Origin: Shimia abyssi
GTDB lineage: Bacteria > Pseudomonadota > Alphaproteobacteria > Rhodobacterales > Rhodobacteraceae
Length of the DNA stretch: 64,000 nt
Assembly: GCF_003014475.1 (NCBI RefSeq)
Contig: NZ_PYGJ01000011.1
Location: forward strand, 1 to 64,000
Direction of reading: 5' to 3'
The translations under genes and the position numbers were made by a program. The notes under the pieces were generated by a model that searched no databases, was not told where the DNA came from, and worked only from the letters and a program-made list of their open reading frames with translations. Below, one piece after another: positions 29,228 to 50,230 of this stretch (the stretch's first letter is position 1; each line of letters starts with the position of its first letter).

Positions 29228-30094
29228 TTAGGCCGCGCCTTGAAGCCACGCCATTACATTCTCGGTTTCGCGGCGAGCGCGGTTGCCCGATCCGGTCTCC
29301 ACGAAATAGCCGTGAGTTGGGGTTATTTGCTCGTCAAAAAGCCGCACGACGCGGCCTTCTCGCAAGTCCTGATCAATCAGCGGGAGCCACCCGACAATCG
29401 CGCCTTGCCCTTCTGTGGCACCTCGAATAAGGGCATTGGCGTCTTGAAACAATGGACCTCGAAGAGGCATTGGCACACGTACGCCCATGGCATCGAACCA
29501 ATCTAGCCAACCCCAATGATCCCTTTGGTGCAAGAGTGGCAATCCCAGGAGATCTTTGGGAGACTCGACGGCGCCAAACCTTGCCATGAACTCCTCACTC
29601 GCGATTGCCACAGGGTTTAGTTCCAGAAGTTTAATGGCATCCTTTGGCATTGAGGCGGTACGCTCCCAGCGAATGACAATGTCTACTCCGGACTGATCAA
29701 TGGCGCCGGGTTGATAAGAAGGGACCACCTCAAGCTCAATATCTGAGTGTGCTTCCCAGAAGTCGCTGAGACGGGGCATCAGCCACCGAGCTGTGAAAAT
29801 CGGGCCTGCCGCAAGGCGTACGGCCTTGCGGGACGTTCTGCGTAATGTTTGAACAGCATCATCGAGTATTCCAAAGGCCTTGGCCGTGGACTCGGCCAGT
29901 CGCCTGCCATCTTCGGTTAGAACGACGTCGCGCCCAGCGCGTTCAAACAGTTTGACGCCCAGTTGATCCTCTAATCCGCGGATGTGGTGGCTTATGGCCG
30001 TCGGCGTGACTGAGAGTGTTGCTGCGGCAGCACGAAAACTACCCTGCATGGCGGCAGCGTCAAAGGCTCGAAGCGCGGGGAGTGAATAGTTCAT
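29228..30094 (-). CDS. LysR-family transcriptional regulator, GcvA-like
   Basis: 288 aa. The N-terminal winged HTH (LPALRAFDAAAMQGSFRAAAATLSV, TPTAISHHIRGLEDQLGVKLF) is that of the GcvA/AmpR subgroup, and a type 2 periplasmic-binding effector domain follows. It is divergent from the MttB-like operon with a 107-nt gap containing a T-N11-A site (30104-30124), so it most likely controls that operon and itself. The effector is expected to be the catabolic substrate or an intermediate. Confidence 0.9.
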   Translation of the reverse strand: MNYSLPALRAFDAAAMQGSFRAAAATLSVTPTAISHHIRGLEDQLGVKLFERAGRDVVLTEDGRRLAESTAKAFGILDDAVQTLRRTSRKAVRLAAGPIFTARWLMPRLSDFWEAHSDIELEVVPSYQPGAIDQSGVDIVIRWERTASMPKDAIKLLELNPVAIASEEFMARFGAVESPKDLLGLPLLHQRDHWGWLDWFDAMGVRVPMPLRGPLFQDANALIRGATEGQGAIVGWLPLIDQDLREGRVVRLFDEQITPTHGYFVETGSGNRARRETENVMAWLQGAA

Positions 30095-30103
30095 GATGGC
30101 CTA

Positions 30104-30124
30104 TAGATAAGTTTTGCTCATCTA
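30104..30124. promoter_or_regulatory. LysR-type T-N11-A binding site
   Basis: TAGAT (30104-30108) and ATCTA (30120-30124) form an inverted repeat separated by exactly 11 nt, the arrangement used by LysR regulators. It lies 10 nt upstream of the regulator start and 78 nt before the MttB-like gene. Assignment to the adjacent LysR is inferred. Confidence 0.65.
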
Positions 30125-30201
30125 ATGCTGAGAAAATCGCCTTTGTAAACAAGCATTCTTTTTGGGATGCTCCGCCAAATATCAAATTGAGCTCATGAGA
30201 C

Positions 30202-31746
30202 ATGTCAAAACCATCGAAACGGCGCGGTCGCGAAGGCCGCATGAAGCAGGCGGCGGCGCCTGACCCCAGCCCACCTGTTTGGCCCGGGGTCATGGGGGGA
30301 CGTCTTAAGCCTCTTTCCAGCGAAGAGGTGGCATTGGTGGAAGAAGCCATGTTCACGTTGTTGGAGACTTTGGGGCTTAGCCAAGCGATCCCCTCGATGC
30401 AGAAAAAAGTCGTGGCCGCAGGTGGATCGATGACGGCAGATGGCCGTCTTCTCTTTCCACGAGCACTTGTCAAAAAGGCAATTGCGGAAGCGAAGCGCGA
30501 TTTCACGCTATGTGGGCAGGTGTCTGAGCGGGACCTGTGTTTGGAAAAGGCGCGTGTGCATATGTCGACAGGCGGGGCGGCACCCGGTGTGTTTGATATG
30601 GATTCGGGTGAATATCGACCTGCGACTCTGGCCGATCTCTATGACGCGGCGCGGTTGGTGGATTGCATGGAAAACATCCACCATTTTAGCCGCCCGGTTG
30701 TGGCGCGCGATGTCGAAGACAATGCCTTGATGGACATTAATACGGCGTATGCCTGTCTGGCGGGTACGTCCAAGCACGTATCGATTTCGATCACCGAGCC
30801 GCAGAATGTGCCTGCAATTGCCGAGCTTTGTTATGCGATCGCTGGAGGTGAGGAGGCGTTTCGGGCGCGACCGTTTTTGACGGTTATGGTGTGCCACGTC
30901 GTGCCGCCGATGCGATTTGCCGAAGAAGCGTGTGAAGTTTTGGAAGCGGCAATCAACGCGGGTTTTCCAGTTCAGTTGATCAGCGCGGGGCAGGCCGGCG
31001 CGACAAGTCCGGCGACGATTGCCGGATCGCTGGTGCAGGCGGTTGCGGAAACGTTGGCCGGATTGGTGTTTGCGCGTCTGATTGACCCTGAGGCCAAGGC
31101 CATTTTTGCACCCAAGCCATTGGTTGCTGACTTGCGGACCGGGTCGATGTCGGGTGGCGGCGGTGAACAGGCCATTCTTATGGCGGCTGCGGCCCAGATG
31201 GGACGGCATTTTGATCTGCCGACGTCGTCCATTGCCGGAATTACCGATGCTAAGACGCTAGACGCGCAATATGGCGCAGAGAAGAGTTTGGCGGTGGCTA
31301 TGGCGGCTCATGCTGGATCAAACATTGTAACTCAGGCGGCCGGAATTCACGCCAGTTTGCTGGGCGTTTCGTTGCAGGGCTATGTCAGTGATAACGATCT
31401 GCTTGGAAACATCTTGCGCACGGTGCGAGGTGTCGAGGCGACGCCAGAGAACATTGCTGCAGATGTGATCGCGCAGGTGTGCTTGGGGCCGGGGCATTAC
31501 CTGGGGGAAAAGCACACGTTTAACCGCATGAAATCAGACTATTTTTACCCCCATATCGGTGATCGGCGTACGCCCACTGAATGGCACGAAGACGGCTCAA
31601 AGGATGTCGGCGAGGTGGCCAAGGAAAAGGCCAAAGAGTTGTTGAGCGAGTATTTTCCGACTCACCTTTCTGACGAGGTTGATCAGGTTCTACGGGACCG
31701 ATTTGATATTCAGCTCAGCCGGGCTCAAATTGGGCGAAGCGTATGA
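30202..31746 (+). CDS. MttB-superfamily methyltransferase (non-pyrrolysine)
   Basis: 514 aa. Family features include HMSTGGAAPGVFDMDSGEYR, KHVSISITEP and SMSGGGGEQAIL, with a C-terminal PHIGDRRTPTEWHEDGS segment. The frame contains no internal amber, so this is the non-pyrrolysine branch, members of which demethylate betaine-type quaternary amines in anaerobes. No corrinoid protein (MttC type) or RamA-like gene is nearby, as is common for homologues in aerobic Rhodobacterales, so the methyl acceptor is unclear. It is the first gene of a five-gene operon and overlaps the aminotransferase by 4 nt (ATGA). Confidence 0.87.
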   Translation: MSKPSKRRGREGRMKQAAAPDPSPPVWPGVMGGRLKPLSSEEVALVEEAMFTLLETLGLSQAIPSMQKKVVAAGGSMTADGRLLFPRALVKKAIAEAKRDFTLCGQVSERDLCLEKARVHMSTGGAAPGVFDMDSGEYRPATLADLYDAARLVDCMENIHHFSRPVVARDVEDNALMDINTAYACLAGTSKHVSISITEPQNVPAIAELCYAIAGGEEAFRARPFLTVMVCHVVPPMRFAEEACEVLEAAINAGFPVQLISAGQAGATSPATIAGSLVQAVAETLAGLVFARLIDPEAKAIFAPKPLVADLRTGSMSGGGGEQAILMAAAAQMGRHFDLPTSSIAGITDAKTLDAQYGAEKSLAVAMAAHAGSNIVTQAAGIHASLLGVSLQGYVSDNDLLGNILRTVRGVEATPENIAADVIAQVCLGPGHYLGEKHTFNRMKSDYFYPHIGDRRTPTEWHEDGSKDVGEVAKEKAKELLSEYFPTHLSDEVDQVLRDRFDIQLSRAQIGRSV

Positions 31747-33032
31747 CCAGCCAAATACTTTCTGAACAAGCCCGTGCAGCGTTGCCCGGCGGAGTTAGTC
31801 ATGAGTTGCGCTATCGCGCGCCGCATCCGGTTTTCATTGACCGCGCTAAAGGCGCCGAGAAATGGGATGTGGACGGCAAGAGATATCTAGATTTCAAGAT
31901 GGGTAGTGCGAGCCAGATGCTGGGTCATTGCCACCCTGAAATCGTGCAGGCGGTACAGAGACAAGCCGAGCGTTCGATCTTTAGCGCGGATTGTCATGTA
32001 CTGGAAACGGAATGGGCTGAATGGGTAAACCGGCTTTACCCGTCGGCAGAGCGGGCGCGATTTACATCGTCTGGCACCGAGGCGACGATGCTTGCCATTC
32101 GGTTGGCGCGCGCGTGGTCTGGCAAGGACCGGGTTTTGCGTGTGGATGGGCATTTCCATGGGTGGCACGATCATGCGCTTAAGGGTGCAAAACCCGGAAG
32201 TGATACAACACCTAGTCTGGGCATACCGCAGGCCATTAATGAATTGATCGATGTGTGTGCGGCGGAACCCGATGCGATGCAAAAGGCATTGGAAGATGAG
32301 CGTATTGGCACGGTCATCATTGAAGCGTCGGGAGCAAATTACGGCTGTGTTCCATTGGCAACTGACACGCTACGTGCATTGCACGATGTGGCCCGAGCAG
32401 CTGGGGTAGTTCTAATCTTTGATGAGATCATCACTGGTTTTCGTTGGTCGCCTGGTGGACGGCAAGCGCGGGATGGGATTGTGCCGGACCTGACAACGCT
32501 GGCCAAGGTCGTGACAGGTGGTCTGCCCGGCGGTGCTGTGTGCGGTCGCGCGGATATCATGGAGTTGATGAGCAACGCCACCAAACGGAACGGGATTGCC
32601 CCGGCAGTCAGTCACAAGGGCACGTTTAACGGTTCGCCCCTCGTTGCGGCGGCGGCCTGTGCGGCCATGCCTATTTTGGCAACTGGTGAAATTCAGGCGC
32701 AGGCGGATGCGATGGCGGACCGGATGCGCGCCGGTATGAACACAGCAATGGCAGATGCAGGAATTGTAGGATTGGCCTATGGCGACAGTTCGATTTTTCA
32801 CATCCATTTCGGACGCGACACTATTGATGGGATGACACCTGCTCAGATACGCAGTTTGCCACCCGTGCAGGTCAAAGCCTATCGCGATGGGATGTTGCAT
32901 CGGGGCGTCGATATGATGGCGTATACGTCCGGCCTTACCAGTGGTGCCCATACACCTGAGTTGATCGACGAGGCGCTGGACGCGTTTCGCGCAACACTTG
33001 CAGACATGATCCGAGACGGGGTTCTAAAATGA
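31743..33032 (+). CDS. Class III PLP aminotransferase (glutamate-1-semialdehyde aminomutase-like)
   Basis: 429 aa. TSSGTEATMLAIRLAR binds the PLP phosphate, VVLIFDEIITGFR has the pyridine-N Asp, and the Schiff-base Lys is K255 in LTTLAKVVTGGLPGG. It resembles HemL/GSA-aminomutase but its operon context is catabolic. It may transaminate an amino-acid product of demethylation (inference). Its start overlaps the MttB-like stop by 4 nt and its stop overlaps the next start by 4 nt. Confidence 0.88.
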   Translation: MTSQILSEQARAALPGGVSHELRYRAPHPVFIDRAKGAEKWDVDGKRYLDFKMGSASQMLGHCHPEIVQAVQRQAERSIFSADCHVLETEWAEWVNRLYPSAERARFTSSGTEATMLAIRLARAWSGKDRVLRVDGHFHGWHDHALKGAKPGSDTTPSLGIPQAINELIDVCAAEPDAMQKALEDERIGTVIIEASGANYGCVPLATDTLRALHDVARAAGVVLIFDEIITGFRWSPGGRQARDGIVPDLTTLAKVVTGGLPGGAVCGRADIMELMSNATKRNGIAPAVSHKGTFNGSPLVAAAACAAMPILATGEIQAQADAMADRMRAGMNTAMADAGIVGLAYGDSSIFHIHFGRDTIDGMTPAQIRSLPPVQVKAYRDGMLHRGVDMMAYTSGLTSGAHTPELIDEALDAFRATLADMIRDGVLK

Positions 33033-35464
33033 CTTTGCCTGACACAGCCCGCACCGTCATTATTGGCGGCGGCGTAATTGGCTGTTCTATAGCTTATCAC
33101 TTGGCTCGTGAGGGTCGCAAAGACATCGTTGTGCTGGAGCGGTCCAAACTGACTTCTGGTACAACATGGCACGCCGCCGGGTTGGTTCGGCGTTTGCGGC
33201 CGTCGGCGACGCTGACTAAGCTGATCAACTATTCGATTGACCTTTACGGCGAGTTGGAAGTCGAGACCGGACAGGCCACTGGCTGGACGCAAACAGGTTC
33301 GCTGACATTGGCAACCAATCAGGATCGATTGACCAATATCAAACGGCAAGTGTCTTTGGGGCGCGCCTTTGGGTTGGAAGCTGAGGTGGTTGACGCGAAA
33401 CGCACGCAGGAGCTTTGGCCGCTTCTTAAGACAGACGATGTGATTGGTGCGGTCTGGTCGCCCTCGGACGGCCGTGTGAACCCGTCAGACGTGGCGCTGG
33501 CATTGTCGAAAGGCGCGCGGGCGCGGGGCGTTCAGATTTTCGAAGACACGGCCGTGACAGGATTGCAGAAAAAGGGTGGACGGATATCAGGGGTAGAAGT
33601 GGGCGATCATGTCATCCAAGCGGATGAGGTGGTGATCGCCTGTGGTCTTTGGTCACGCGACGTTGCCGAGATGGCCGGGGCGCATATGCCGCTTTATGCG
33701 TGTGAGCATTTCTACATTCTGACGAAGCCGCTGGAAGAAGTGCAGGCGTTGGGCAAGGGTGTCCACCTGCCGACGTTGAACGATCAGGATGCTTATCTGT
33801 ATGCCCGAGACGATGTCGAAGGGTTGTTGGTTGGCTGCTTTGAGCCTCATGCAAAAGGGTTGCCGATGAGCCGGTTGCCCAGAGATTTCTCGTTTGACCT
33901 GCTGGACGAGGACTGGGACCATTTTATGCCGATGATGGAGAATGCGCTGGAGCGCATTCCAGCGTTGGAAAAAGCCGAAGTGCGGATGCTTCTGAATGGA
34001 CCGGAGAGCTTCACCTTGGACAGTCAGTTCATGTTGGGTGAAAGCCCAGAGGTGCCCGGGCTTTTCCTGATGGGTGGCATGAACTCGACTGGGATTGCGC
34101 TGGCGGGTGGCGCGGGAAAGGCGATGGCCGAATGGATCATAGCGGGCGAGCCGACAATGGAACTGAACGAAGCGGATATACGCCGTTTCAGCCCTGAGAT
34201 GAATGTTCTAGGAGCGCTGGAAGCGCGTATTCCGGAAGTCTTGGGTCGACATTATGATAACCCCTTTCCGGGTCGCTCGATGGAGACAGCGCGTGGTCAA
34301 CGACGTTCTCCGATCCACGCAGGTCTTGTGACGGCGGGCGCCCGGTTTGAAAGTCGGGGCGGCTGGGAGCGGGCTGTACATTTTGGCGGACACGCTGCGC
34401 ATTTGCCGTTGACGTTTGGTGCGCCGCAGTGGCGCGAACAAGTGGGTCAAGAAGTTGACGCCTGCCGCGTCGGCGCCGCCATTCTGGACCAGAGCGCCTT
34501 TGGCAAGATCATGGTCCAAGGGCCGGATGCCAGCGCATTCCTGAACCGGCTGTGTGCTGCACAGATGGATATCGCTGAGGGGCGCATTGCTTACTCCCAG
34601 ATTCTGAATGATCGTGGTGGCGTGGAAAGCGACATCACAGTGCAGCGCCATGGGCCAGAAACGTATCTGATGATTGTGGGTACAGGCGAAGTCGTGCGTG
34701 ATCTTAAGCGTATGCGTGAGACCAAGGGTGATTATCGCGTCGAATTCACAGATGTCACAAGTGGTTATGCGGTGCTTGGGTTGGCGGGAGCCAAAGCCCG
34801 CGAAACGCTGCAGGCCACCACGAACAGCCCAGTTCCAAACTTGAAGCGGTTTCAATTCGCTCCCATTGAAATCGGCTTGGCGCGGGGCTGGGCTGGCCGA
34901 CTGGGCTTTACGGGTGAAGAGGGGTATGAGCTTTATATTCCCGCAGACATGGCGATGGCCGCCTATGAGGCGCTTGTCGCGGCGGGCGCGAGCCATGCCG
35001 GGTTGTTTGCCAGTGGGTCTTTGCGCATTGAAAGTGGGTTCCGCGCCTTTGGGCACGAACTTAGCCCCGGCAACACGCCACAAGAGGCAGGTCTAGGCGC
35101 ATTTTGTGCCTTTGGGACCGGATTTGTCGGTGAAGAGGCGCTGAATGGGCACGCACCAGAGCGGCGCATTGTGTCGGTTCTATTTGATGATCCATCGGCT
35201 ATCCCTATCCATGATGAGCCAGTTTATTTTGGCGGGAAAGTTGTAGGTCAGATCACGTCGGCGGCATGGAGTTATCGGTTCGGTCGCTCGGTTGCGCTTG
35301 CCATGATCAACGTTCCCGCAGCCACGACACCCGAAGACTCGGGGGCACCATTGGGTCTGTTGGATGGGCGTGTTGTCGAAGGGTTTGAAATTGAAATCGC
35401 CTGTACGCGCTATGCGGCCAAGGCTTCGCTGAAACCCGCCAAAGAGGCGTTTGCACATGACTGA
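33029..35464 (+). CDS. FAD-dependent N-demethylating dehydrogenase with GcvT domain (DMGDH/sarcosine dehydrogenase type), copy 1
   Basis: 811 aa. The N-terminal DAO fold has VIIGGGVIGCSIAYHLA (residues 9-25) and LTSGTTWHAAGL, whose His is the covalent FAD attachment point in dimethylglycine and sarcosine dehydrogenases. An FAO_M linker and a C-terminal aminomethyltransferase (GcvT) domain (about 430-811) follow; the latter passes formaldehyde-level carbon to tetrahydrofolate. The expected reaction is oxidative removal of an N-methyl group giving methylene-THF. It overlaps both operon neighbours, so it is translationally coupled. Confidence 0.9.
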   Translation: MTLPDTARTVIIGGGVIGCSIAYHLAREGRKDIVVLERSKLTSGTTWHAAGLVRRLRPSATLTKLINYSIDLYGELEVETGQATGWTQTGSLTLATNQDRLTNIKRQVSLGRAFGLEAEVVDAKRTQELWPLLKTDDVIGAVWSPSDGRVNPSDVALALSKGARARGVQIFEDTAVTGLQKKGGRISGVEVGDHVIQADEVVIACGLWSRDVAEMAGAHMPLYACEHFYILTKPLEEVQALGKGVHLPTLNDQDAYLYARDDVEGLLVGCFEPHAKGLPMSRLPRDFSFDLLDEDWDHFMPMMENALERIPALEKAEVRMLLNGPESFTLDSQFMLGESPEVPGLFLMGGMNSTGIALAGGAGKAMAEWIIAGEPTMELNEADIRRFSPEMNVLGALEARIPEVLGRHYDNPFPGRSMETARGQRRSPIHAGLVTAGARFESRGGWERAVHFGGHAAHLPLTFGAPQWREQVGQEVDACRVGAAILDQSAFGKIMVQGPDASAFLNRLCAAQMDIAEGRIAYSQILNDRGGVESDITVQRHGPETYLMIVGTGEVVRDLKRMRETKGDYRVEFTDVTSGYAVLGLAGAKARETLQATTNSPVPNLKRFQFAPIEIGLARGWAGRLGFTGEEGYELYIPADMAMAAYEALVAAGASHAGLFASGSLRIESGFRAFGHELSPGNTPQEAGLGAFCAFGTGFVGEEALNGHAPERRIVSVLFDDPSAIPIHDEPVYFGGKVVGQITSAAWSYRFGRSVALAMINVPAATTPEDSGAPLGLLDGRVVEGFEIEIACTRYAAKASLKPAKEAFAHD

Positions 35465-37868
35465 TACTACGCGCACCACGCAAGTCGCCATTATTGGTGG
35501 TGGGATTATGGGCGTTGCAGCCCAGTTCCAGCTGGCCGAGAATGGTTGGACGGACACCATTCTGTTTGAGAAAGCGGAACTGACCAGTGGGTCAACTTGG
35601 CACGCCGCCGGGCAGATCGCCCACGCGGTCGGATCCCGTTTAGCCGGATGGATCAACAAGACGTCGATCGAGACCTACAAGCGAGTCGAGAAGGAAACCG
35701 GCCAGTCGATTGGTTGGCACGAGGTTGGTGGATTTCGCATCGCAACTACGGATGACGAAGTCGACTGGATGAAGTCTATCATGGGTGTTGGCCGCTTGCT
35801 GGACCTTCCAATGGAATTGGTTGGGCCAGAAGAAGTAGCTGCAGGAAACCCATTTTACAAAGTCGATGACGTTAAGGCGGCTGTGCGTACGTTTAAGGAC
35901 GGTCATATCGATCCATCCTCGGTGACAATGGCGCTGGCCGCGGCGACACGCGCGAGCGGGGCCAAAATTGAGCGTCACAATCAGGTGACGGGCGCGTCGC
36001 GCAAGGGCGATATGTGGCTGTTAAAAACCGAAAAAGGAGATGTTCTGGCCGAACATGTTGTGATTGCGGCTGGTTCCTATGCCAATCAGGTGGGCGAATG
36101 GTTCGGCTTGAAAATACCATCGGTCAGCTGTCTGCACCATTATCTGGTCACGGACACGGTGCCAGAGTTTCTCGATCGCCCCGAGCTTCCTGTGATGCGT
36201 GATAATTCCTTTGGGGGGTATATCCGGCAGGAGCAGAAATCAGGGTTAATCGGTATTTATGAGGGGCATGTTTGCCCGACGGTCTGGGAGATGCCAAAGG
36301 GCGCGCCCTGGGCTGCTGAAAACGAGCTTTTTGAGGCGGATTATGACTCGATTGGCGACTTTTTGATGGTTGCACTAGAGAAAATGCCGGTGCTTGCTGA
36401 GTTAGGTATCAAACGTGTGGTGCGGGGCGCGATTACGCACACACCGGACGGCGGTATGTTGGTTGGGCCTTCTGGCGCACCGAATGTTTGGTTGTCCTGT
36501 GGGTCGTCAATCGGGCTTGCGTGGGGCGGCGGAGCTGGCAAAGTTTTGGCCGACTGGATGGTGCATGGCGAAGCCGAGATCAACACACGTGGGTTCGATC
36601 CACGTCGGTACGGCAATTTTGCGACGGACCATTTTATCGTCGAGCGCACCAAAGACGAATTTATGCGTCGGCATGATACCCCATGTCCAGGCAAACAGTT
36701 CGAAAGCTTGCGGCCACTGAACCGCCACCCGCTTTATAATCGGCTCGCGGCAAAGGGAGCAGTATTTGGTGAGATCGCCGGGTGGGAGCGTCCGCGATAC
36801 TTTGGTGAAGTGGGTGAGGTGGAGCCGTTGGGCTGGGGCCATCAAGCATGGCATAAAAACGCGACCGCAGAAGCAAAAGCCACGCGGGAAGCTGCTGGGG
36901 TGATCGATCTTTGCGCATTTGCGCAGTTCGAGATCACTGGCAAGGATGCAGGCGCACTTTTAAACCGTCTTTCAGCCAACAAGCTACCCGCGAAACACGG
37001 TCGGATGACCCTGAACCACCTGTTGACCGAAAAGGGTCGGTTCGAAACGGAGATTACGATCTGGCGGATTGACGAGGATCGCTATTTCACGGGATCGCCC
37101 ATCGCACGGGCCGCGCCGGATTTTGCCTGGATCAAGTCGCATATCTGCGACGGAGAAGATGTACAGATGGTAAATCTGTCCCATGATTGGGGTATGCTGG
37201 CGCTCTCTGGACCTGCGTCTCGGACTATTCTGAAAGAATTGACCGACGCTGATCTCACCAAAGCGGCGTTTCCGTGGCTGTCGGGCCAGGAAATCAAAGT
37301 GGCTGGCATATCCTGTTATGCGCTGCGTGTTTCGTTTGTGGGCGAATTGGGATGGGAGCTTCACGCCCCGCTGGAACACATTTGTGCGCTTTACGATGCG
37401 TTGTTTGCGGCGGGTGAAAAGCACGGTCTTGTTGATCTGGGTTCCTATGCCTTTAACGGGATGCGCATGGAAAAGGCATACCGCGCGTCAGGGGAGCTGA
37501 CGACGGATGTTGGCCCGCTGGACGTTGGGTTGGACAGGTTTGTCGTAACAGAGGGTCGCGATTTTCTGGGTCAAGCCGCGTTGATGTCGCGTGATCCGAG
37601 TTGGGAGCTGTTCTATTGCGAATTGCACGCGGATGGTATCGACATTCACGGTGGCGAACCGGTTCTTTTGAATGGAAAACCAGTAGGTTTGACCACGTCG
37701 GGCGGTTATGGCTACACCGTGGGCAAGTCGCTGGGTTGGCTCTTTGTACGCAAGGGCACGCCGCAGGCCGGGTTGTCGGTGCAAATTTTGGATCAGCAAT
37801 ATCCGGTCTCTGTCCACGCAAACTCAATCTTTGACCCGCAGAACGCCCGTCCAAGGTCAGATGATTGA
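35457..37868 (+). CDS. FAD-dependent N-demethylating dehydrogenase with GcvT domain, copy 2
   Basis: 803 aa from ATG 35457; an in-frame TTG at 35451 is less likely. VAIIGGGIMGVAAQFQLA and LTSGSTWHAAGQ repeat the dinucleotide and covalent-FAD motifs of copy 1, and the same C-terminal GcvT domain follows (FVGELGWELHAP, LGSYAFNGMRMEKAYR). The two proteins are divergent paralogues, not a recent duplication. Having two suggests successive removal of two N-methyl groups or demethylation of two intermediates (inference). It overlaps copy 1 by 8 nt. Confidence 0.9.
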   Translation: MTDTTRTTQVAIIGGGIMGVAAQFQLAENGWTDTILFEKAELTSGSTWHAAGQIAHAVGSRLAGWINKTSIETYKRVEKETGQSIGWHEVGGFRIATTDDEVDWMKSIMGVGRLLDLPMELVGPEEVAAGNPFYKVDDVKAAVRTFKDGHIDPSSVTMALAAATRASGAKIERHNQVTGASRKGDMWLLKTEKGDVLAEHVVIAAGSYANQVGEWFGLKIPSVSCLHHYLVTDTVPEFLDRPELPVMRDNSFGGYIRQEQKSGLIGIYEGHVCPTVWEMPKGAPWAAENELFEADYDSIGDFLMVALEKMPVLAELGIKRVVRGAITHTPDGGMLVGPSGAPNVWLSCGSSIGLAWGGGAGKVLADWMVHGEAEINTRGFDPRRYGNFATDHFIVERTKDEFMRRHDTPCPGKQFESLRPLNRHPLYNRLAAKGAVFGEIAGWERPRYFGEVGEVEPLGWGHQAWHKNATAEAKATREAAGVIDLCAFAQFEITGKDAGALLNRLSANKLPAKHGRMTLNHLLTEKGRFETEITIWRIDEDRYFTGSPIARAAPDFAWIKSHICDGEDVQMVNLSHDWGMLALSGPASRTILKELTDADLTKAAFPWLSGQEIKVAGISCYALRVSFVGELGWELHAPLEHICALYDALFAAGEKHGLVDLGSYAFNGMRMEKAYRASGELTTDVGPLDVGLDRFVVTEGRDFLGQAALMSRDPSWELFYCELHADGIDIHGGEPVLLNGKPVGLTTSGGYGYTVGKSLGWLFVRKGTPQAGLSVQILDQQYPVSVHANSIFDPQNARPRSDD

Positions 37869-38070
37869 GATGACGGACGTTAAGGCCACAAAAAGTGGAG
37901 AACTGACTGTCCACCCGGCTGCGCAAAACAAAACACATTGGGCTGGCAAGGCTGTGGATGGCCGATTTGTTGGCGAAAACAGAGGGTTGGCTGTGCTCCA
38001 GTCACCAAAATGGATGACCAGCGGCAAGGACGGGGATCCTTTGCAGCGGTGCCCGAAAAAGAGGAAATAA
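37861..38070 (+). CDS. Possible 69-aa coupling ORF, unknown
   Basis: An open frame from ATG 37861 (or 37870) overlaps the previous stop and ends in TAA overlapping the next start (TAATG). The product is hydrophilic, basic at its end (CPKKRK), and has no recognisable domain. The position suggests translational coupling, but it may be only an operon spacer of about 200 nt. GAGG just before its stop serves the next gene. Confidence 0.3.
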   Translation: MIEMTDVKATKSGELTVHPAAQNKTHWAGKAVDGRFVGENRGLAVLQSPKWMTSGKDGDPLQRCPKKRK

Positions 38071-38072
38071 TG

Positions 38073-39749
38073 ATGAGTAACCAGATCAACGGCGGTGAGG
38101 CCGTCTACCGAGTGCTAAAGGCCAACGGAATTGACACCGTGTTCGGCCTGTTGGGCGGTTCGATGCTGGAACTTTATGATGCCATGTATGAAGGCGGTGA
38201 GATTTCCTATGTTGGTGCGCGGGATGAGCGTGCCGCAGGACATATGGCTGATGCATGGGCTCGCATGACGGGCAAACCCGGTGTGGTCTTGGGTGCGCAA
38301 GCCGGTCCCGGTGTTGTTAATATTGTGACTGCTGTGGCCGAGGCACAGCTGGCCTATTCTCCAATGGTTGTCATTGCTGGAGCGATCACGCGGGCGGACC
38401 AGTGTAAGGATACCTTTCAGGAAGTTGATCAGGTCGCGCTGTTTGCGCCGATCTCGAAACGTTCGGTTATGGTGACGGACCCGTCGCGGCTTGCTCCGAT
38501 GTTGGAAGACGCAATCCGTCTTGCCAGCTCAGGGCGCCGTGGTCCGGTTGTATTGCATGTCCCGCGTGATTTGTTTGCGGCCATGTTGCCTGATGTAGAA
38601 CCTAAGGCGGTGGCCATTGCACGCCCAGGACCGGCGGCGCCAGAGGATGTTGACGCGATTGCCTCACTGATCTCTAACGCGAGCCGCCCGGTCATCTTTG
38701 CTGGCGGCGGTTTTAAGTGGGGCAAAGGCAGAGAGGCACTTACCGAGCTTGCTGAAACGTTGGAGGTGCCTGTTGTTGCCTCTACCGGGCATGCCGACGT
38801 TATGCGCCATGGCCACCCGTGGTTTGCGGGTCAGGCTGGCCCGCGTGGCAACCGCGTTGCCAGCCGACTGACTAAAGAGGCGGACGTTTTGGTCGTTCTC
38901 GGCGCGCGCTTGGGTTTCAATTCGACATTCCATAGCAATGATTATGTTGGCGCGGATACGCGTATCGCACATGTCGACATCGATGGCTCGGCAGTGGGTC
39001 GTTATTTCCCGGCCGAGATTGCCGTACAAGCAGATGCTCGCCAAACCGCCGAAGCACTTGCGCCTAAGGCCAATAAGCCAAACGCAGATGTGTGGCGCGA
39101 AGCGTTTAAAGCCGACATGGCGAGCCTTGCCAAAGAGCGCGCGGAGGAAGCTGAGATTGCAACGTGGCCGATGCATCCGCGCAGAGCTTTGGCTGAAATT
39201 CGCGATGCATTGCCGGCAGACGCAATTACCACACTCGACACGGGCAACACATGTCTGCAAGCTGCCGACCGGTTGGCGCATTATGAGCCACTTAGCCTGA
39301 TCACACCGCTTGATTTCGGGCTTGTAGGGTTTGGTCTGGCGGCCGCAATAGGTGCAAAATCAGCGAGCCCTGAACGCCCGGTCGTGGCGATCATGGGCGA
39401 TGGTGCCGTCGGCTATACTATGGTCGAAATTCAAACTGCAATCTCTCATAATCTGCCCATCGTTATTATTGTGCTCGATAATGAAGCGTGGGGCGCGGAA
39501 AAAGCCTATCAACAGGAGTTCTTTGGTGGTCGCTTACTCGGCGCGGAGATCCAGTCGCCGCGGTACGACAAGTTTGCTGAGTTGTGTGGTGGTAAGGGAA
39601 TTTGGGTCGACGCAGTAGGGAAGATGGGACCAGCGCTGAAAGATGCGATCGCGAGCAATCAAACCACCGTCATTCAATGCAAAATTGACCCTGGTGCCCT
39701 GATGACCCTGCGCAAAGATTTGTTCACCAAACAGGATGACAACGACTGA
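38073..39749 (+). CDS. Thiamine-diphosphate-dependent enzyme (acetolactate synthase-like family)
   Basis: 558 aa from ATG 38073 (GAGG 8 nt upstream; ATG 38070 is an alternative). The PYR domain has the activating Glu in GARDERAAGHMADAWAR, followed by a central domain and the ThDP motif GDGAVGYTMVEIQTAISHNL ending in V-L-D-N. It is clearly of the ThDP decarboxylase/synthase superfamily, but not a normal IlvB (no small subunit gene) and not an obvious Xsc. It may cleave or condense a 2-oxo acid from the aminotransferase step (inference). It is the last gene of the operon, followed by a terminator. Confidence 0.88.
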   Translation: MSNQINGGEAVYRVLKANGIDTVFGLLGGSMLELYDAMYEGGEISYVGARDERAAGHMADAWARMTGKPGVVLGAQAGPGVVNIVTAVAEAQLAYSPMVVIAGAITRADQCKDTFQEVDQVALFAPISKRSVMVTDPSRLAPMLEDAIRLASSGRRGPVVLHVPRDLFAAMLPDVEPKAVAIARPGPAAPEDVDAIASLISNASRPVIFAGGGFKWGKGREALTELAETLEVPVVASTGHADVMRHGHPWFAGQAGPRGNRVASRLTKEADVLVVLGARLGFNSTFHSNDYVGADTRIAHVDIDGSAVGRYFPAEIAVQADARQTAEALAPKANKPNADVWREAFKADMASLAKERAEEAEIATWPMHPRRALAEIRDALPADAITTLDTGNTCLQAADRLAHYEPLSLITPLDFGLVGFGLAAAIGAKSASPERPVVAIMGDGAVGYTMVEIQTAISHNLPIVIIVLDNEAWGAEKAYQQEFFGGRLLGAEIQSPRYDKFAELCGGKGIWVDAVGKMGPALKDAIASNQTTVIQCKIDPGALMTLRKDLFTKQDDND

Positions 39750-39760
39750 CGTCTCGCCGA

Positions 39761-39811
39761 ATGCCGCGATATCCCGGGCCGTAAACTGGTCACGGAAACG
39801 CGGCATTTTTG
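39761..39811 (+). terminator. Probable terminator of the MttB/DMGDH operon
   Basis: ATGCCGCG (39761-39768) pairs with CGCGGCAT (39799-39806), directly followed by TTTTT. A small inner CCGT/ACGG stem shortens the 30-nt loop. It lies 12 nt after the ThDP-enzyme stop. Confidence 0.7.
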
Positions 39812-41925: not shown

Positions 41926-42109
41926 TCACTCCTCTTCGTTCTTGCCAATGCTCAACCCTAGTGCCTTAGCAACTTCGGCCCCATAGGCCGGATCGGCTTG
42001 CAGGCAGTTCGCAATGTGCCGGCACTGAATGTCTTCCCTTGCTCCGCCAACGGCACGGGCTGTGTTTTTAAACAGTGCTTACTGCTGGTCAGGCAACATC
42101 AGTCGAACG
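41926..42109 (-). pseudogene. Catalase 3' remnant, cut by the IS6-family element
   Basis: On the minus strand the frame VRLMLPDQQ, stop (TAA, 42081-42079), [13 protein letters not shown], then [20 protein letters not shown] and the end [11 protein letters not shown] matches the C-terminus of monofunctional catalases. The 5' part is absent: homology stops at the IS boundary (42110) and does not resume beyond 42916. The fragment carries an in-frame nonsense codon and is non-functional. About 170 nt between it and the redoxin remnant (41754-41925) hold nothing I recognise. Confidence 0.75.
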
Positions 42110-42916
42110 GGTATTGCGAAGTTGTTTTCGGCTGACCGGAACATGGCGGTCGACTACGCTCAAGCTGCCATTTCGGCGGTGTATTCGACCCACAGGCTAA
42201 AAGCGTCGTTGCGAGCATGGCGATTGAAGCTGCAGTGAGTTGATAACGGCGGGGGCGGAAAATATGGTTGATCTGGTCGTGCGCCGATAGAAACCTCTGG
42301 ACCTGCCGGTGTGACTTGAACCGGCCAAATATCGTCTCTATTTTGCGGGTCGGCCTGTGGGAGGCTTCGATCGCGTTGTTGAAGCCGTTGTGGGCGCGAT
42401 GGTCAGCCCCCGATGCCAACGCGCTGACCGGCTTTATTTGGCTGCGCAATTTGTCGGTGATGACAACCCTAGGCTCGCCGAATTGAGCAATCAGGCGCCG
42501 GAAGAACCGCTTTGCCGCCTTTGCGTTCCGCCGTGGTTGCACAAGAATATCAAGCACATCGCCAGATGCGTCGATGGCTCGCCACAACCAATGCTTTTTG
42601 CTGTGGATCGTGATGACGACTTCGCCCAGATGCCACTTGTCGTTCGGTCGTGGACGGTCTCGACGGACGCACTGAGCGAAATGCTGTCCAAAACGAATGA
42701 CCCATAGAAGAATGGCCTCTCGGCTGACAATGACTCCCCGCTCCGCGAGCAAGTCCTCAACATCTGCTGTACTCATGGCGAAGCGGTGGTAAGCCCAAAC
42801 CGCGTAGGAAATCACCTCTCGAGGATAGCGAAATCCCCTTAGGCGTGGCATGCTGGTCGGAATTTTCATCAAAAGGTAAAGACGGAGCCAAGCCGTACAA
42901 ACAACTTGGCAATACC
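42110..42916 (-). mobile_element. IS6-family insertion sequence, degenerate, 807 bp
   Basis: Terminal inverted repeats are visible: left GGTATTGCGAAGTTGTTTT (from 42110) and right, on the complement, GGTATTGCCAAGTTGTTTG (ending at 42916), one mismatch in 18. Length is typical for IS6 elements. The flanking octamers (42102-42109 GTCGAACG; 42917-42924 GACGGGAA) are not a target duplication, and different genes lie on the two sides, so a rearrangement or deletion probably happened at the element. The transposase inside is inactive. Confidence 0.82.
42160..42872 (-). pseudogene. IS6-family transposase, inactivated
   Basis: Homology starts with GFRYPREVISYAVWAYHRF and runs through the DDE region. 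The first catalytic Asp is replaced by Gly (residue 83, WHLGEVV for the usual WHLDEVV, a GAC to GGC change at 42624-42626); D140 (ITDKLRS) and E169 (IEASHRPTR) remain. A one-base deletion near 42225 shifts the end. Restoring it gives RHARNDAFSLWVEYTAEMAA with stop at 42160-42162, the normal IS6 C-terminus; as it stands the frame runs on to 42099 and past the IS end. Confidence 0.85.
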
Positions 42917-43422: not shown

Positions 43423-45840
<2,418 letters not shown>

Positions 45841-45934
45841 TCATGCCGTCCTTAATGATTTTGTCATTTTATAGCTTTTTCGGCAGGGAATGTCACGCGA
45901 TTGACCAAACTTTCCGTAGGATTTGCGCCCGGCC

Positions 45935-47041
45935 TCAGCCGGTTTGTCGCACGCTGGAAATGTTTTCGTTTTCAGTGACTTCCAAATACTGTGCACGCGG
46001 GCCTAGGGCGCTAAAAAGATGGGTCTCGGTGCCGGTCATCCAGGCCTGTGCTCCAAGGGCGCAAATCTCGTCATAAAGAGCTGCGCGGCGGTCTTCATCA
46101 AGGTGGGCGGCCACTTCATCCAGTAGGAGGATGGGCGGGGCTTTTATGTCTGCTTGCAAAGCACGTGCATTGGCGAGGATGAGTGAGACCAGCAACGCCT
46201 TTTGCTCTCCGGTTGAGCAATCACGGGCTGGGACGCCCTTGGCCGCGTAGACGCCATAAAGGTCGGTACGATGCGGGCCGACAAGGGTACGTCCGGCGGC
46301 GATGTCGCGAAAGCGACTTTCGGATAGTGCCCCTTTCAGGTCGGCCTCGGAGGTGGGCATGCTGCCTTCACTTTGGGTCAGCTCCAGTTGTGCCGTCGGG
46401 AACGCAGTTTTGGCGCAGTCCTGTGCTGTTGTGAGGCGTGCAAGCGTTTGTTGACGGGCGGTGTGGATGCGATGACCCGCCTCGGCCATTTGCCGTTCCA
46501 GTGCGGTGTACCAGTGCACGTCGCGCACCTGTTCCTTGAGCAAGCGGTTGCGTTCCCGCATCGCCTTTTCGTACGCCAATGTAGCGTCAGCGTGATCGGG
46601 AAAAAAGCTGAGGGTCAGTCGGTCGAGAAAGCGGCGGCGACCCTCGGCGCCTTCGATCCAGAGGCGATCCATGGCGGGGATCAGCCAGAGCACGCGGGAC
46701 AGGCGGGCGAGCGCGTTCTGGGGAGTCGGTTTGCCATCGATGCGCAGCTGTCGTGCTGCGCCGTTCTCTGACCGGATATCGACCTCGTGTGGTGCGCCAT
46801 CGGCTTGTAAAAGCCCAGCGAGTTTCCACCCCAGTGCCTCGGGCCGTCTTGCCATGTCTTCGGCGCTGGCGCGACGCAGGCCGCGACCGGGAGAAAACAG
46901 TGAGACCGCTTCGAGGATATTGGTTTTGCCAGCCCCGTTTGCACCGTGAATCGCAATCGGGCGCGCATCGCATTCGATGACGGCCCGTTTGTGCGAGCGG
47001 AAGTGAGAGAGCTCAAGCCTTTGAATATAAAGACTGCTCAT
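45935..47041 (-). CDS. recF: DNA replication/repair protein RecF
   Basis: 368 aa. Walker A GANGAGKTNILEAVSLFSPGRG (about 34-55), ABC-type signature in DCSTGEQKALLVSLILANA and Walker B PILLLDEVAAHLD. It loads RecA at gaps with RecOR. It lies 53 nt after dnaN and 94 nt before gyrB. Confidence 0.96.
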   Translation of the reverse strand: MSSLYIQRLELSHFRSHKRAVIECDARPIAIHGANGAGKTNILEAVSLFSPGRGLRRASAEDMARRPEALGWKLAGLLQADGAPHEVDIRSENGAARQLRIDGKPTPQNALARLSRVLWLIPAMDRLWIEGAEGRRRFLDRLTLSFFPDHADATLAYEKAMRERNRLLKEQVRDVHWYTALERQMAEAGHRIHTARQQTLARLTTAQDCAKTAFPTAQLELTQSEGSMPTSEADLKGALSESRFRDIAAGRTLVGPHRTDLYGVYAAKGVPARDCSTGEQKALLVSLILANARALQADIKAPPILLLDEVAAHLDEDRRAALYDEICALGAQAWMTGTETHLFSALGPRAQYLEVTENENISSVRQTG

Positions 47042-47094
47042 ACCGCACTTTCATTATTGGGAAAATACTCTCGCCAAAGGCGTTCCGATAGCGA

Positions 47095-48213
47095 TCAAAC
47101 CCGCATCGGCATCACGACATAGACTGCGCTAGTGTCGTTGCCTTCGCGCATCAGGGTCGGATCGCCAGCAGAATTGAACAGGAACACGGCGTTCTCGCGG
47201 TCAACCTGGCTCGCGATTTCGAGCAGGTATTTGGCGTTAAAACCGATTTCTAGCCGTTCGTCGCCGTAAGCGACAACCAGTTCTTCTTCGGCGGCACCGC
47301 TGTCAGGTGCATTGACCGACAGAATCAGGCGGTCTTCGTCGAGCTGGAGTTTCACAGCGCGTGACCGTTCCGAGGACACGGTAGCCACACGATCCACGGC
47401 TTTGGCGAATTCGGCTGCGTCTACCTCCATTTTGCGGGTGTTTCCGGCTGGAATGACGCGCGAATAGTCAGGAAAAGTGCCGTCGATTACCTTGGATGTC
47501 AGGGTGATGTCCGGAGTGGCAAAGCGTACTTTGGTTTCAGACACAGACACGGCGATGGTCATGTCGTCATCATCCAACAGCTTGCGCAGTTCGCCCACGG
47601 TCTTGCGTGGCACAATCACGCCAGGCATGTCTGATGCGCCTTCTGGCAAATCCGCGTCGATCCGGGCGAGGCGGTGGCCGTCCGTGGCCACACAACGCAA
47701 TACCTTGCCGCCATCCGCGTCAGAGACGTGCATGTAAACGCCGTTGAGGTAATAGCGGGTTTCTTCGGTCGAGATGGCAAATTTGGACTTGTCGAACAGG
47801 CGACGCAGCACCGGCGCAGGCGCCGAGAAGTTGCTGGAGTATTCGGACGATGCCATTACCGGGAAGTCTTCTTTCGGCAGAGTTGCCAATGAGAAGTTCG
47901 AGCGCCCAGCTTCGACTGTGAGGCGACCGGCCGCGCCGTCGTCGATCAGCGTTACCAGCGCGCCGTCAGGCAGTTTGCGTACGATTTCATGCAGTGTCGT
48001 TGCGGCAACTGTGGTTGAACCGGCGCGCTCGATCATTGCATTGGCCTTGTCGACGACTTCGATGTCGAGATCCGTTGCGCGGAACTGAGCGGTATCACCT
48101 TCGGCTTCGATCAGCACGTTGGCGAGGATTGGAATTGTGTTGCGCCGTTCCACCACTGATTGCGCTTGGGAAACGGCTTTGAGCAGCACGCTGCGTTCGA
48201 TACTGATTTTCAT
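47095..48213 (-). CDS. dnaN: DNA polymerase III beta clamp
   Basis: 372 aa from ATG 48213 (MKISIERSVLLKAVSQAQSV, the normal start); a longer upstream reading has no family support. Three clamp domains follow, ending VYVVMPMRV, the conserved C-terminus of the sliding clamp. It is downstream of dnaA with a 224-nt gap containing no recognised element. Confidence 0.97.
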   Translation of the reverse strand: MKISIERSVLLKAVSQAQSVVERRNTIPILANVLIEAEGDTAQFRATDLDIEVVDKANAMIERAGSTTVAATTLHEIVRKLPDGALVTLIDDGAAGRLTVEAGRSNFSLATLPKEDFPVMASSEYSSNFSAPAPVLRRLFDKSKFAISTEETRYYLNGVYMHVSDADGGKVLRCVATDGHRLARIDADLPEGASDMPGVIVPRKTVGELRKLLDDDDMTIAVSVSETKVRFATPDITLTSKVIDGTFPDYSRVIPAGNTRKMEVDAAEFAKAVDRVATVSSERSRAVKLQLDEDRLILSVNAPDSGAAEEELVVAYGDERLEIGFNAKYLLEIASQVDRENAVFLFNSAGDPTLMREGNDTSAVYVVMPMRV

Positions 48214-48437
48214 GTCCACTTCCCTCATCCATGCCGGGAGTGGCAACGTAGCGCAATCCCCCGTCGGCTCAAGCATTTTCTCGTTTTTCCGACGGTTTCA
48301 CGGGAGCGTCAAGGGATGGCGCGGCTGGAAGTCTGGATTTGAGGAAAAAACAATGCTTCGCGGGCATCAAAGAGTGCCTCAAGCACCCGAAGACATTGAG
48401 CAACGCCTTCGAGCAAAGTTCTGGAGCGTTGCCTGAC

Positions 48438-49808
48438 TTAGGCTTCGAGGGCGCGACGCAGCATTTCGAGGTCTTCGGCGATCTGGCCATCTTGGCCGCG
48501 CAATTCCTCAATGCGTTTTACACCGTGCATGACAGTGGTGTGGTCACGTCCGCCAAAGCGGCGGCCGATTTCGGGCAAAGAGCGCGACGTCAGCTGTTTG
48601 CACAGAAACATGGCCACCTGACGCGGGCGCGCAAAGGTGCGCACACGTTTGGGGCCGATCATATCGCTGAGGCGAATATTGTAGTGCTCGGCCACCTTGC
48701 GCTGGATCTCTTCAACGGAAATTTTGCGTTCTGATGCGCGTAGTACGTCGCTCAGACAATCCTGCGTGAGTTCCATAGTGATTTCGCGGCCAACGAGCGA
48801 GGCGAAGGCAAAAAGGCGGGTCAGTGCGCCTTCTAGGACGCGCACGTTGGTAGAGATGCGGTGTGCGAGGAATTCGAGGATACCGTCCTGAAGCTGAAGC
48901 TCTGGGTATTGGGCGCGATAGGCGTCGACCTTGGATTGCAGAATACCCAGTCGCAGTTCGTAGTCAGTTGGGTGCAGGTCAACAACGAGGCCGCATTGCA
49001 GACGGCTCTTGATGCGCTCTTCAAGATCCTTGATTTCACCCGGAGCGCGGTCTGCTGAGATGATAATTTGTTTGTTCTGGTCCACGAGTGCGTTGAATGT
49101 GTGAAAGAATTCCTCTTGCGTTGAGTCTTTTCCGGCGATGAATTGCACATCGTCAACCATCAGAATGTCGACGGAGCGGAACAGTTGTTTGAAGTCCATC
49201 ATCTTGCGGTCGCGCAAGGCTTGGACGAAACGGTACATGAATTGTTCGGCGGATAAGTAAAGCACGTTTAGGTCGGGTCGATGAGATTGCAGTTCCCATG
49301 CGATGGCGTGCATAAGGTGAGTTTTACCTAGACCGACGCCACCATAGAGAAACAGCGGGTTGAATGTGACAGGGCCTCCTTCAGCAACCCGTCGCGCGGC
49401 CGCATTGGCTAGTTCGTTTGGCTTACCGACGACAAAGCGATCGAAAGTGAAACGCGAGTCAAGTGGCGCGCCGGTCATTGCCGTATCGCGAACTGAGGAC
49501 GATTTGTCCGAGCTATTTGTGATTGATGCATCTGATTTGAGCGCAACAGGCGGGGTTTTTGGAGAATTAGCCACGACAGAAAAGCTGATGCGCTGAACAC
49601 GTTCGCCGGATTTGGTGAGGTGGTGCAGGATCAAATCGCCGTAGTTTTGCGTCACGTAGTTGCCAATAAAGTTTGTAGGCACGTTAAAGCGCGCCACACC
49701 CTCGGTAAGTTCGGCAAACTCGATAGGTTCAATCCAAGTTTTGAAGTTGTTTTGCCCGACCGAATTTAGAAGGTCCTGTCTTAACGCGCCCCATTGTTCC
49801 TTTGTCAT
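48438..49808 (-). CDS. dnaA: Chromosomal replication initiator DnaA
   Basis: 456 aa from ATG 49808 (MTKEQWGALRQDLLNSVGQNNFKTWIEP); the frame stays open upstream but that part lacks DnaA similarity. The AAA+ core has LYGGVGLGKTHLMHAIA and ILMVDDVQFIAGKDSTQEEFFHTF; the domain IV signature GGRDHTTVMHGVKRIEEL binds DnaA boxes. It initiates replication at oriC. Confidence 0.97.
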   Translation of the reverse strand: MTKEQWGALRQDLLNSVGQNNFKTWIEPIEFAELTEGVARFNVPTNFIGNYVTQNYGDLILHHLTKSGERVQRISFSVVANSPKTPPVALKSDASITNSSDKSSSVRDTAMTGAPLDSRFTFDRFVVGKPNELANAAARRVAEGGPVTFNPLFLYGGVGLGKTHLMHAIAWELQSHRPDLNVLYLSAEQFMYRFVQALRDRKMMDFKQLFRSVDILMVDDVQFIAGKDSTQEEFFHTFNALVDQNKQIIISADRAPGEIKDLEERIKSRLQCGLVVDLHPTDYELRLGILQSKVDAYRAQYPELQLQDGILEFLAHRISTNVRVLEGALTRLFAFASLVGREITMELTQDCLSDVLRASERKISVEEIQRKVAEHYNIRLSDMIGPKRVRTFARPRQVAMFLCKQLTSRSLPEIGRRFGGRDHTTVMHGVKRIEELRGQDGQIAEDLEMLRRALEA

Positions 49809-50230
49809 CTGTCCCCAAGTTCCTTCAATCGTGCCATGCCGGGCTTTGCCCGATCGTTCCTGTATTCCGTCGACACAATACCTTGAAAGGGTGGAAGAAA
49901 ACCGCTTCCTAAGACAAACACTACCCCTCTTTCCAAAAGCTCTCACCTTCAGAAAGTCGTTTGCCTTACGCGCATGAGCGCAACTCCAAAAGAACAGTCG
50001 CAGACCAAATACATTCTGCCCATGCAAGACTCACTCTACCGAAAGAGTAACTCATTGCAGCGCCGAACACGGCTGATTGCCAAAAGCAATTTGGCGTCTG
50101 TTCCCCCAAGGCGATGTGAATCGCAAGACCGAAATTAGCAACTGGTGAGGGGCGCGGGCAACTGATCTTCGATCTTGACTCTGGGATTCCTCAAAAAGAA
50201 TCTCTGGGCCGATTAACAGGCGTCCAAAAT
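49809..50230. other. dnaA upstream region, no DnaA boxes seen
   Basis: About 420 nt between dnaA and the rpsT terminator. It should contain the dnaA promoter. I searched by eye for TTATNCACA-type DnaA boxes on both strands and found none, nor an AT-rich unwinding tract, so I do not call it an origin. Confidence 0.55.

Follow-up and report, generated by a model that had tools for sequence, protein, structure and literature searches.

A LysR-linked five-gene operon of Shimia abyssi as a candidate route for the breakdown of a betaine-type solute

What might a bacterium degrade with an operon that joins an MttB-superfamily methyltransferase to an aminotransferase, two flavin- and folate-dependent demethylases and a thiamine diphosphate (ThDP) enzyme, and where would the methyltransferase find its corrinoid partners? 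Such an operon lies in a 64,000-nucleotide stretch of the Shimia abyssi genome (contig NZ_PYGJ01000011.1, positions 1 to 64,000 of the forward strand; hereafter, the window). The five-gene set with its divergent LysR gene is real, the five genes are conserved, and we lean towards the view that they carry out, under LysR control, the complete breakdown of an acyclic solute with a trimethylammonium group (betaine type). Pfam and NCBIfam searches agreed with the families named in the original prediction, which had been made from the DNA letters alone (LysR, MttB, a glutamate-semialdehyde [GSA]-type aminotransferase, two FAD/GcvT proteins, and a ThDP enzyme). The close coupling that it had described stood for three junctions, with overlaps of 4 nucleotides between the MttB and aminotransferase genes, 4 between the aminotransferase gene and that of the first demethylase (FG1), and 8 between FG1 and the second (FG2). 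The fourth junction had to be corrected to a gap of 201 nucleotides, which a 66-codon frame (37870-38070) fills; the stop codon of this frame and the start of the ThDP gene overlap (TAATG). This frame gave no match in a Pfam search and has a counterpart in a Tateyamaria locus (L035; L, G, and C numbers are our handles for loci, genomes, and contigs) alone among the fetched loci, with 52% over 40 residues and a similar length and place; it is possibly a small coupled gene. For FG2 and the ThDP enzyme, we placed the starts at ATG 35457 and ATG 38070, where the list of open reading frames has TTG 35451 and TTG 37938, respectively.

Table 1 Features of the operon and its borders, in window coordinates
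Feature	Coordinates	Strand	Remarks
LysR-family regulator (GcvA-like)	29228..30094	-	Divergent from the operon; Pfam HTH_1 and LysR_substrate
Candidate LysR-type operator, TAGAT-N11-ATCTA	30104..30124		Perfect palindrome; sole match in the window
MttB-superfamily methyltransferase without pyrrolysine, 514 residues	30202..31746	+	PF06253, 462 bits
Pyridoxal-phosphate aminotransferase, class III, GSA-like, 429 residues	31743..33032	+	PF00202
FG1, dimethylglycine dehydrogenase-like FAD/folate (FAD/GcvT) demethylase 1, 811 residues	33029..35464	+	DAO, FAO_M, GCV_T, GCV_T_C
FG2, dimethylglycine dehydrogenase-like FAD/folate (FAD/GcvT) demethylase 2, 803 residues	35457..37868	+	DAO, FAO_M, GCV_T, GCV_T_C
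66-codon frame, uncertain	37870..38070	+	Fills the spacer between FG2 and the ThDP gene; TAATG overlap with the ThDP start
ThDP enzyme, Xsc-related subfamily, 559 residues	38070..39749	+	TPP_enzyme N/M/C
Terminator-like hairpin followed by a U run	39759..39811	+	10-bp stem, long loop

To see how widely the arrangement occurs, 80 of 121 relatives found were examined, and the counts of loci that follow are among the matches listed. MttB was 71-81% identical in 37 of them and 40-44% identical in 43, and the five-gene set was not seen in any of the latter. Together with two annotated plasmid loci, those with an MttB at least 71% identical make up 39 loci, 33 of which carry all five genes in the same order; of the other six, four end at contig ends (L011, L015, L030, L033), one is without the aminotransferase (L022), and one has other middle genes (L040). 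These loci are not independent, as 25 of the 39 carry the name Ruegeria or Leisingera. Carriers include the R. pomeroyi DSS-3 megaplasmid and a plasmid of Ruegeria sp. THAF33. With the ThDP protein we sampled 385 genomes of the class, 398 of the phylum, and 198 of the family, scoring three first-look candidates per class or phylum genome and up to seven per family genome, so that absences are not firm. A match at 66% identity or above occurs in eight of the 198 family genomes (counting the window's own, and with one match split in two), and one at 44-46% in nine; gene context was read for four of the eight, namely the window, L122, L123, and L043 (which looks like G780). The same-genus genome G022 yielded no ThDP match, with three of its seven candidates scored. 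Distribution of the operon is patchy, given its plasmid and megaplasmid locations. Our literature search, largely without subscription papers and without supplementary files, found no account of the five-gene locus as a pathway, nor any description of the three-gene form introduced below.

From the families and the conserved operon, the outline given in the original prediction—stepwise demethylation, transamination, then a ThDP-dependent step—gains support, and one MttB, two demethylases, and one aminotransferase would match three methyl groups and one amine. We infer every catalytic step from sequence. In step 1, the MttB protein would transfer one methyl group to the MtgC-type corrinoid protein encoded in the genome, with RACo and DUF1638 proteins presumably keeping the corrinoid reduced and an MtgD-type protein emptying it to tetrahydrofolate. 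The two demethylases, judged by their family, would oxidise off the other two methyls in steps 2 and 3 to give methylene-tetrahydrofolate; the aminotransferase may then convert the bare amine to an oxo compound (step 4), which the ThDP enzyme would consume (step 5), in our favoured version by splitting CO2 off a 2-oxo acid to leave an aldehyde. Decarboxylation at step 5 would imply an alpha-amino-acid betaine as substrate. This is the type we hold most likely, since dimethylglycine dehydrogenase (DMGDH)-type enzymes act next to a carboxylate and an aldehyde-forming step would explain the aldehyde dehydrogenase found in some of the related loci.

Step 1 depends on where the methyl group goes. 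Since MttB relatives normally need a corrinoid protein and a reactivase, the original prediction had raised the possibility of a different acceptor in the first step, and neither partner is indeed among the families of the operon's own proteins. The MttB protein itself belongs to the branch of its superfamily that is free of pyrrolysine (Pyl), judged by the span of PF06253 (residues 7-499 of 514) and the absence of an amber codon: it scores 328 bits against the trimeth_pyl model (cut-off 525), aligns an isoleucine with the Pyl column of the solved MttB 7xcl, and has an open frame with no in-frame stop. The genome encodes nine PF06253 proteins versus one PF02607 protein. A genome search for MttC and RamA, which the prediction had proposed as a check, recovered both kinds of partner unlinked to the operon: the PF02607 protein, which is MtgC-type (C6:176366-177073) and carries both B12-binding domains, and a RACo-type reactivase in single copy (C6:2811-5060). 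A DUF1638 gene is separated from the MtgC-type gene by one GNAT gene, a pterin-binding MtgD-type protein is encoded on C20, and a homocysteine-binding MtgE-type protein on C6. The MtgC, MtgD, DUF1638, and RACo counterparts were assigned by family and gene order.

At the genome level, the description of the operon as corrinoid-free is not supported: the partner proteins are absent from the operon but present elsewhere, a statement about presence only. According to the accessible part of PMC12478193, which also credits marine bacteria with ‘up to seven’ MttB-type genes, an MtgBCD-type set acts in trans in R. pomeroyi, itself an operon carrier, as shown genetically. The window shares with the MtgBCD systems of R. 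pomeroyi DSS-3 and Desulfitobacterium hafniense a Pyl-free PF06253 protein and, in the genome, counterparts of MtgC, MtgD, RACo, and DUF1638, whose genes here too, as in R. pomeroyi, are unlinked from the MttB gene; it differs in that its MttB has an operon of its own, which also encodes an aminotransferase and a ThDP enzyme. Transfer to a non-corrinoid acceptor could draw on the operon's gene content and on the genome of L040, a metagenome-assembled genome (MAG) that gave no RACo match; set against the candidate partners in the same genome and the precedent in R. pomeroyi, it strikes us as very improbable. We therefore retain the corrinoid-dependent version of step 1, and the operon appears to be a variant form of cobalamin-dependent betaine demethylation whose later steps are unusual.

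The middle genes bear on which betaine is degraded. Both demethylases share the domain order of DMGDH and dimethylglycine oxidase (DAO-FAO_M-GCV_T-GCV_T_C): FG1 scores 421 bits against the solved DMGDH 4pab and FG2 504 bits against the solved mitochondrial DMGDH 5l46, with STWHAAG aligned. Both translations contain the WHAAG motif, whose histidine we take to be the covalent FAD link. Unlike in those systems, two distinct copies stand in one operon beside an aminotransferase, and from neither do we deduce action on dimethylglycine or sarcosine. The closest solved structure to the aminotransferase by sequence is D-phenylglycine aminotransferase 2cy8 (254 bits).

DMGDH-like enzymes could suggest that the operon serves the breakdown of a familiar compound, namely glycine betaine, choline, carnitine, or homarine. 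The N-methylglutamate dehydrogenase (Mgd) has a multi-subunit make-up, and no such enzyme is among the operon's families, which hold single-chain DMGDH-like enzymes instead. This would count against homarine, in whose breakdown Mgd takes part according to a citing paper, PMC13390433. MttB-family enzymes elsewhere do act on glycine betaine and carnitine, as the accessible part of PMC12478193 has it; yet glycine betaine would yield glycine, for which an aminotransferase and a ThDP step serve no evident purpose. By the same account, R. pomeroyi converts both choline and carnitine to glycine betaine, and the PF06253 proteins that it names as raised in this species are SPO2108 and SPO2134 rather than SPOA0313, the ortholog of the window's MttB. 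All four substrates look unlikely, and we give this explanation little credence. The R. pomeroyi operon corresponds to SPOA0309-SPOA0313, tags that we counted from the order of protein accessions and anchored on SPOA0318 as megL and SPOA0309 as sulphoacetaldehyde acetyltransferase (in the accessible parts of PMC9870897 and PMC4334477, respectively); by this count, SPOA0309 is the ThDP enzyme, SPOA0310 the ortholog of FG2, and SPOA0313 MttB.

More serious is the question raised by the ThDP enzyme, whose two top NCBIfam models are both Xsc (sulphoacetaldehyde acetyltransferase; 404 bits with a cut-off of 620, and 380 bits with a cut-off of 676). The substrate might on this basis be a sulfonate betaine, either that of taurine or a related C3 compound, which the same demethylation would turn into a sulfo-aldehyde for an Xsc-like release of sulfite and acyl phosphate. 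The enzyme has the FQE and WGAEK motifs in common with Xsc, WGAEK being absent from the acetolactate-synthase-like paralog L145; past the FQE region, it retains a lysine not found in Xsc. A 2014 reannotation (PMC4334477, as far as its accessible part goes) gives its R. pomeroyi ortholog SPOA0309 the name sulphoacetaldehyde acetyltransferase, a label by annotation. Against this, the protein fails the Xsc equivalog model TIGR03457 (376-380 bits against a cut-off of 676) and forms a separate clade, while a true Xsc (931 bits) is encoded elsewhere in the same genome. For about 15 kb around the operon in R. pomeroyi and Ruegeria THAF33, the gene table, itself incomplete, lists no sulfite exporter, Pta, or sulfite dehydrogenase. 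We consider a sulfonate substrate doubtful, if far from negligible, and the ThDP enzyme appears to represent a new subfamily related to Xsc.

One related locus also touches on sulfonates. In L111 (6075-16237), a ThDP gene related to that of the window is followed by an FAD/GcvT demethylase gene and one for a D-cysteate sulfo-lyase (NF052482, 516 bits, above the cut-off of 450), which would suit the sulfonate explanation, but this ThDP enzyme falls in a separate clade linked to luciferase-like monooxygenases (LLM). That sister clade (42-46%; L108-L113, L124-L131) sits in another conserved operon, which in its fullest form comprises LysR, flavin reductase, aldehyde dehydrogenase, LLM monooxygenase, AA_synth (PF06684), alpha/beta hydrolase, ThDP, and CMD genes, with some loci lacking some members; the operon presumably resembles pathways that open N-heterocyclic rings. 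An MttB gene in L111 points towards the LLM-type operon, and the cluster may constitute a possible route for N-methylated cysteate.

A different view of the middle genes came from loci with only three genes. In L040, L105, L106, L107, L122, and L123, the order is MttB, a flavoprotein of old-yellow-enzyme (OYE) type (643-651 residues, the start in L107 being unclear), and ThDP enzyme, so that one flavoenzyme stands in place of the aminotransferase and two demethylases; relative to the window, MttB is 50-74% and the ThDP enzyme 57-70% identical. Genes in G+C-rich loci were called in six frames by a third-codon-position rule, a rough procedure. In a tree of 29 chosen ThDP rows (L027, which is cut, was left out), which carries a long-branch warning for the Xsc and outgroup rows, the five-gene loci form one clade (100/100), joined in turn by L122 with L123 (100/98), L040 (99/96), and L105-L107 (98/98), and the LLM-linked ThDP enzymes, like Xsc, fall outside the five-gene and three-gene loci. 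A tree of 36 chosen MttB rows again places L122, L123, and L105-L107 outside the five-gene loci. Probably, therefore, as read from these trees, an aminotransferase and two DMGDH-like enzymes replaced one OYE-type flavoprotein, and because MttB and the ThDP enzyme stayed, the exchanged parts would do the same net job of converting a dimethylamino compound to an oxo compound. In the older form, the OYE-type protein would perform steps 2-4, perhaps releasing dimethylamine. The aminotransferase was itself exchanged, as L012 (61% identical to the window's) and L091 (81%) are MttB sisters at 100/100. Past the three genes in L123 (11608-19527), Pfam identified hydantoinases A and B, and by reading we noted aminotransferase, racemase-like, and MmgE/PrpD-like genes, which may hint at a substrate.

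With less assurance than for the betaine-type operon as such, at a level slightly short of even, we propose that these loci encode an undescribed B12-dependent quaternary-ammonium pathway, distinct from those for glycine betaine, choline, carnitine, and homarine, in which a new ThDP subfamily provides the last enzyme and, with MttB and the ThDP enzyme fixed at either end, the OYE-type protein gave way to an aminotransferase and two folate-coupled demethylases, so that methyl carbon is kept as C1-folate rather than lost as dimethylamine.

Additional genes within related operons fit the predicted aldehyde product, which would need an aldehyde dehydrogenase. One lies between the MttB and aminotransferase genes in L019, L021, L027, L038, and L041 (the last with a LysR gene alongside), and the operon contains one in five of the 33 complete loci; the L040 cluster has such a gene as well. 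An amidase gene stands between FG2 and the ThDP gene in L016, L027, L046, and L047. Both enzymes may be accessory. A TcuA-like flavoprotein gene directly follows the ThDP gene in ten loci, two being truncated where the fetched sequence stops (that of L039 scores 577 bits, cut-off 369); at this place R. pomeroyi has a shortened, unannotated frame (L091:24054-25124, NC_006569), where several other loci have the full gene. Neighbouring transporters led nowhere as a guide to the substrate: the only cluster in several loci was an ABC ATPase (five loci), which, read in place by eye or annotation, belongs to differing sets, for example 2-aminoethylphosphonate in THAF33.

Several observations weigh against the pathway we favour. 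Its aldehyde step has to contend with aldehyde dehydrogenase and amidase genes that lie inside the operon only where the aminotransferase is of the 61% type (8 of 11 complete loci, versus 0 of 22 with the other type), and with a ThDP enzyme nearer to Xsc than to other curated models, which disfavours plain decarboxylation. The L022 locus does without an aminotransferase. That the FG2 ortholog SPOA0310 is among the genes more highly expressed at a late stage of co-culture with a diatom (in the accessible part of PMC9723723) speaks for the pathway, but its label there, ‘Glycine’, speaks against it; by our reading, this is a mislabelled N-demethylase. The history of exchange is not wholly clean, since the MttB tree puts L040, an OYE-form locus, among the five-gene loci (88/71); this locus is a mosaic, with an MttB 74% and a ThDP enzyme 57% identical to those of the window. 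By bit score, the OYE-type protein resembles 2,4-dienoyl-CoA reductase more closely than trimethylamine dehydrogenase (267 versus 139 bits in L122, 279 versus 174 in L040), so that its identity as a trimethylamine dehydrogenase is unsupported by sequence and amine chemistry is kept on account of its position. As to RACo, it was found in 16 of 17 searched genomes with the operon or the three-gene form, the exception being the L040 MAG (15 of 16 if G780 and G939, which look like one genome, are counted once, and with some genomes judged operon-bearing by ThDP identity only). It is also found in 187 of 198 family genomes, however, and we dropped this co-occurrence as uninformative: being nearly universal in the family, RACo removes the objection of a missing reactivase without proving dependence.

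The operon is probably regulated by LysR, as suggested by sequence upstream of MttB. Both borders that the original prediction had drawn, a LysR site and a terminator, could be located, namely the palindrome and the hairpin of Table 1. For the regulator, the top NCBIfam model is GcvA, at 223 bits below its cut-off of 288. TAGAT-N11-ATCTA matched none of 100 shuffles and once in the 64-kb window, and was rejected as a conserved operator as it recurs in 3 of 40 upstream regions (the window, 37 of the 39 loci, L122, and L123; L017, L041, and L105-L107 were left out). The conserved part is the inner ATGAG-N5-CTCAT, present in the window as ATAAG-N5-CTCAT at 30107-30121, 95 nucleotides ahead of the MttB start. 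At least 8 of its 10 arm positions match in 32 of the 40 regions, a descriptive count because the pattern was picked after inspecting the same sequences; 29 of these sites sit 92-98 nucleotides before the MttB start, with some start codons placed by hand, and 5.6% of base-by-base shuffles reached 8 of 10. Between related loci, the spacer changes while the arms stay. A genome scan for the core returned two more sites with one mismatch, one of them (C6:172565-172579) about 100 nucleotides before an mtgE-type gene (C6:172676); these were not counted, with about 1.5 chance matches expected by our estimate and none for a reversed-pattern control. The terminator-like hairpin has a z-score of -2.66, with 3 of 200 shuffles folding equally well, and was not among the matches of a terminator scan limited to loops of 3-8. 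Past the operon, judged by translations alone, a transposase-like gene (42099-42872) is followed by gyrB, recF, dnaN, and dnaA (43423-50027), so the operon here seems to lie near the chromosomal origin, versus its megaplasmid location in R. pomeroyi.

Marine bacteria hold many MttB-type genes without an assigned substrate, nine PF06253 proteins being encoded in this genome, and the operon offers a tractable handle on one of them, in particular in R. pomeroyi (SPOA0309-SPOA0313), where knock-outs have been made. The candidate regulator site can be used for reporter tests, and the three-gene and five-gene forms provide a natural comparison, since the nitrogen and C1 products predicted for them differ. 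Working out the pathway would add to the known nutrients of marine bacteria and link another carbon flow to vitamin B12.

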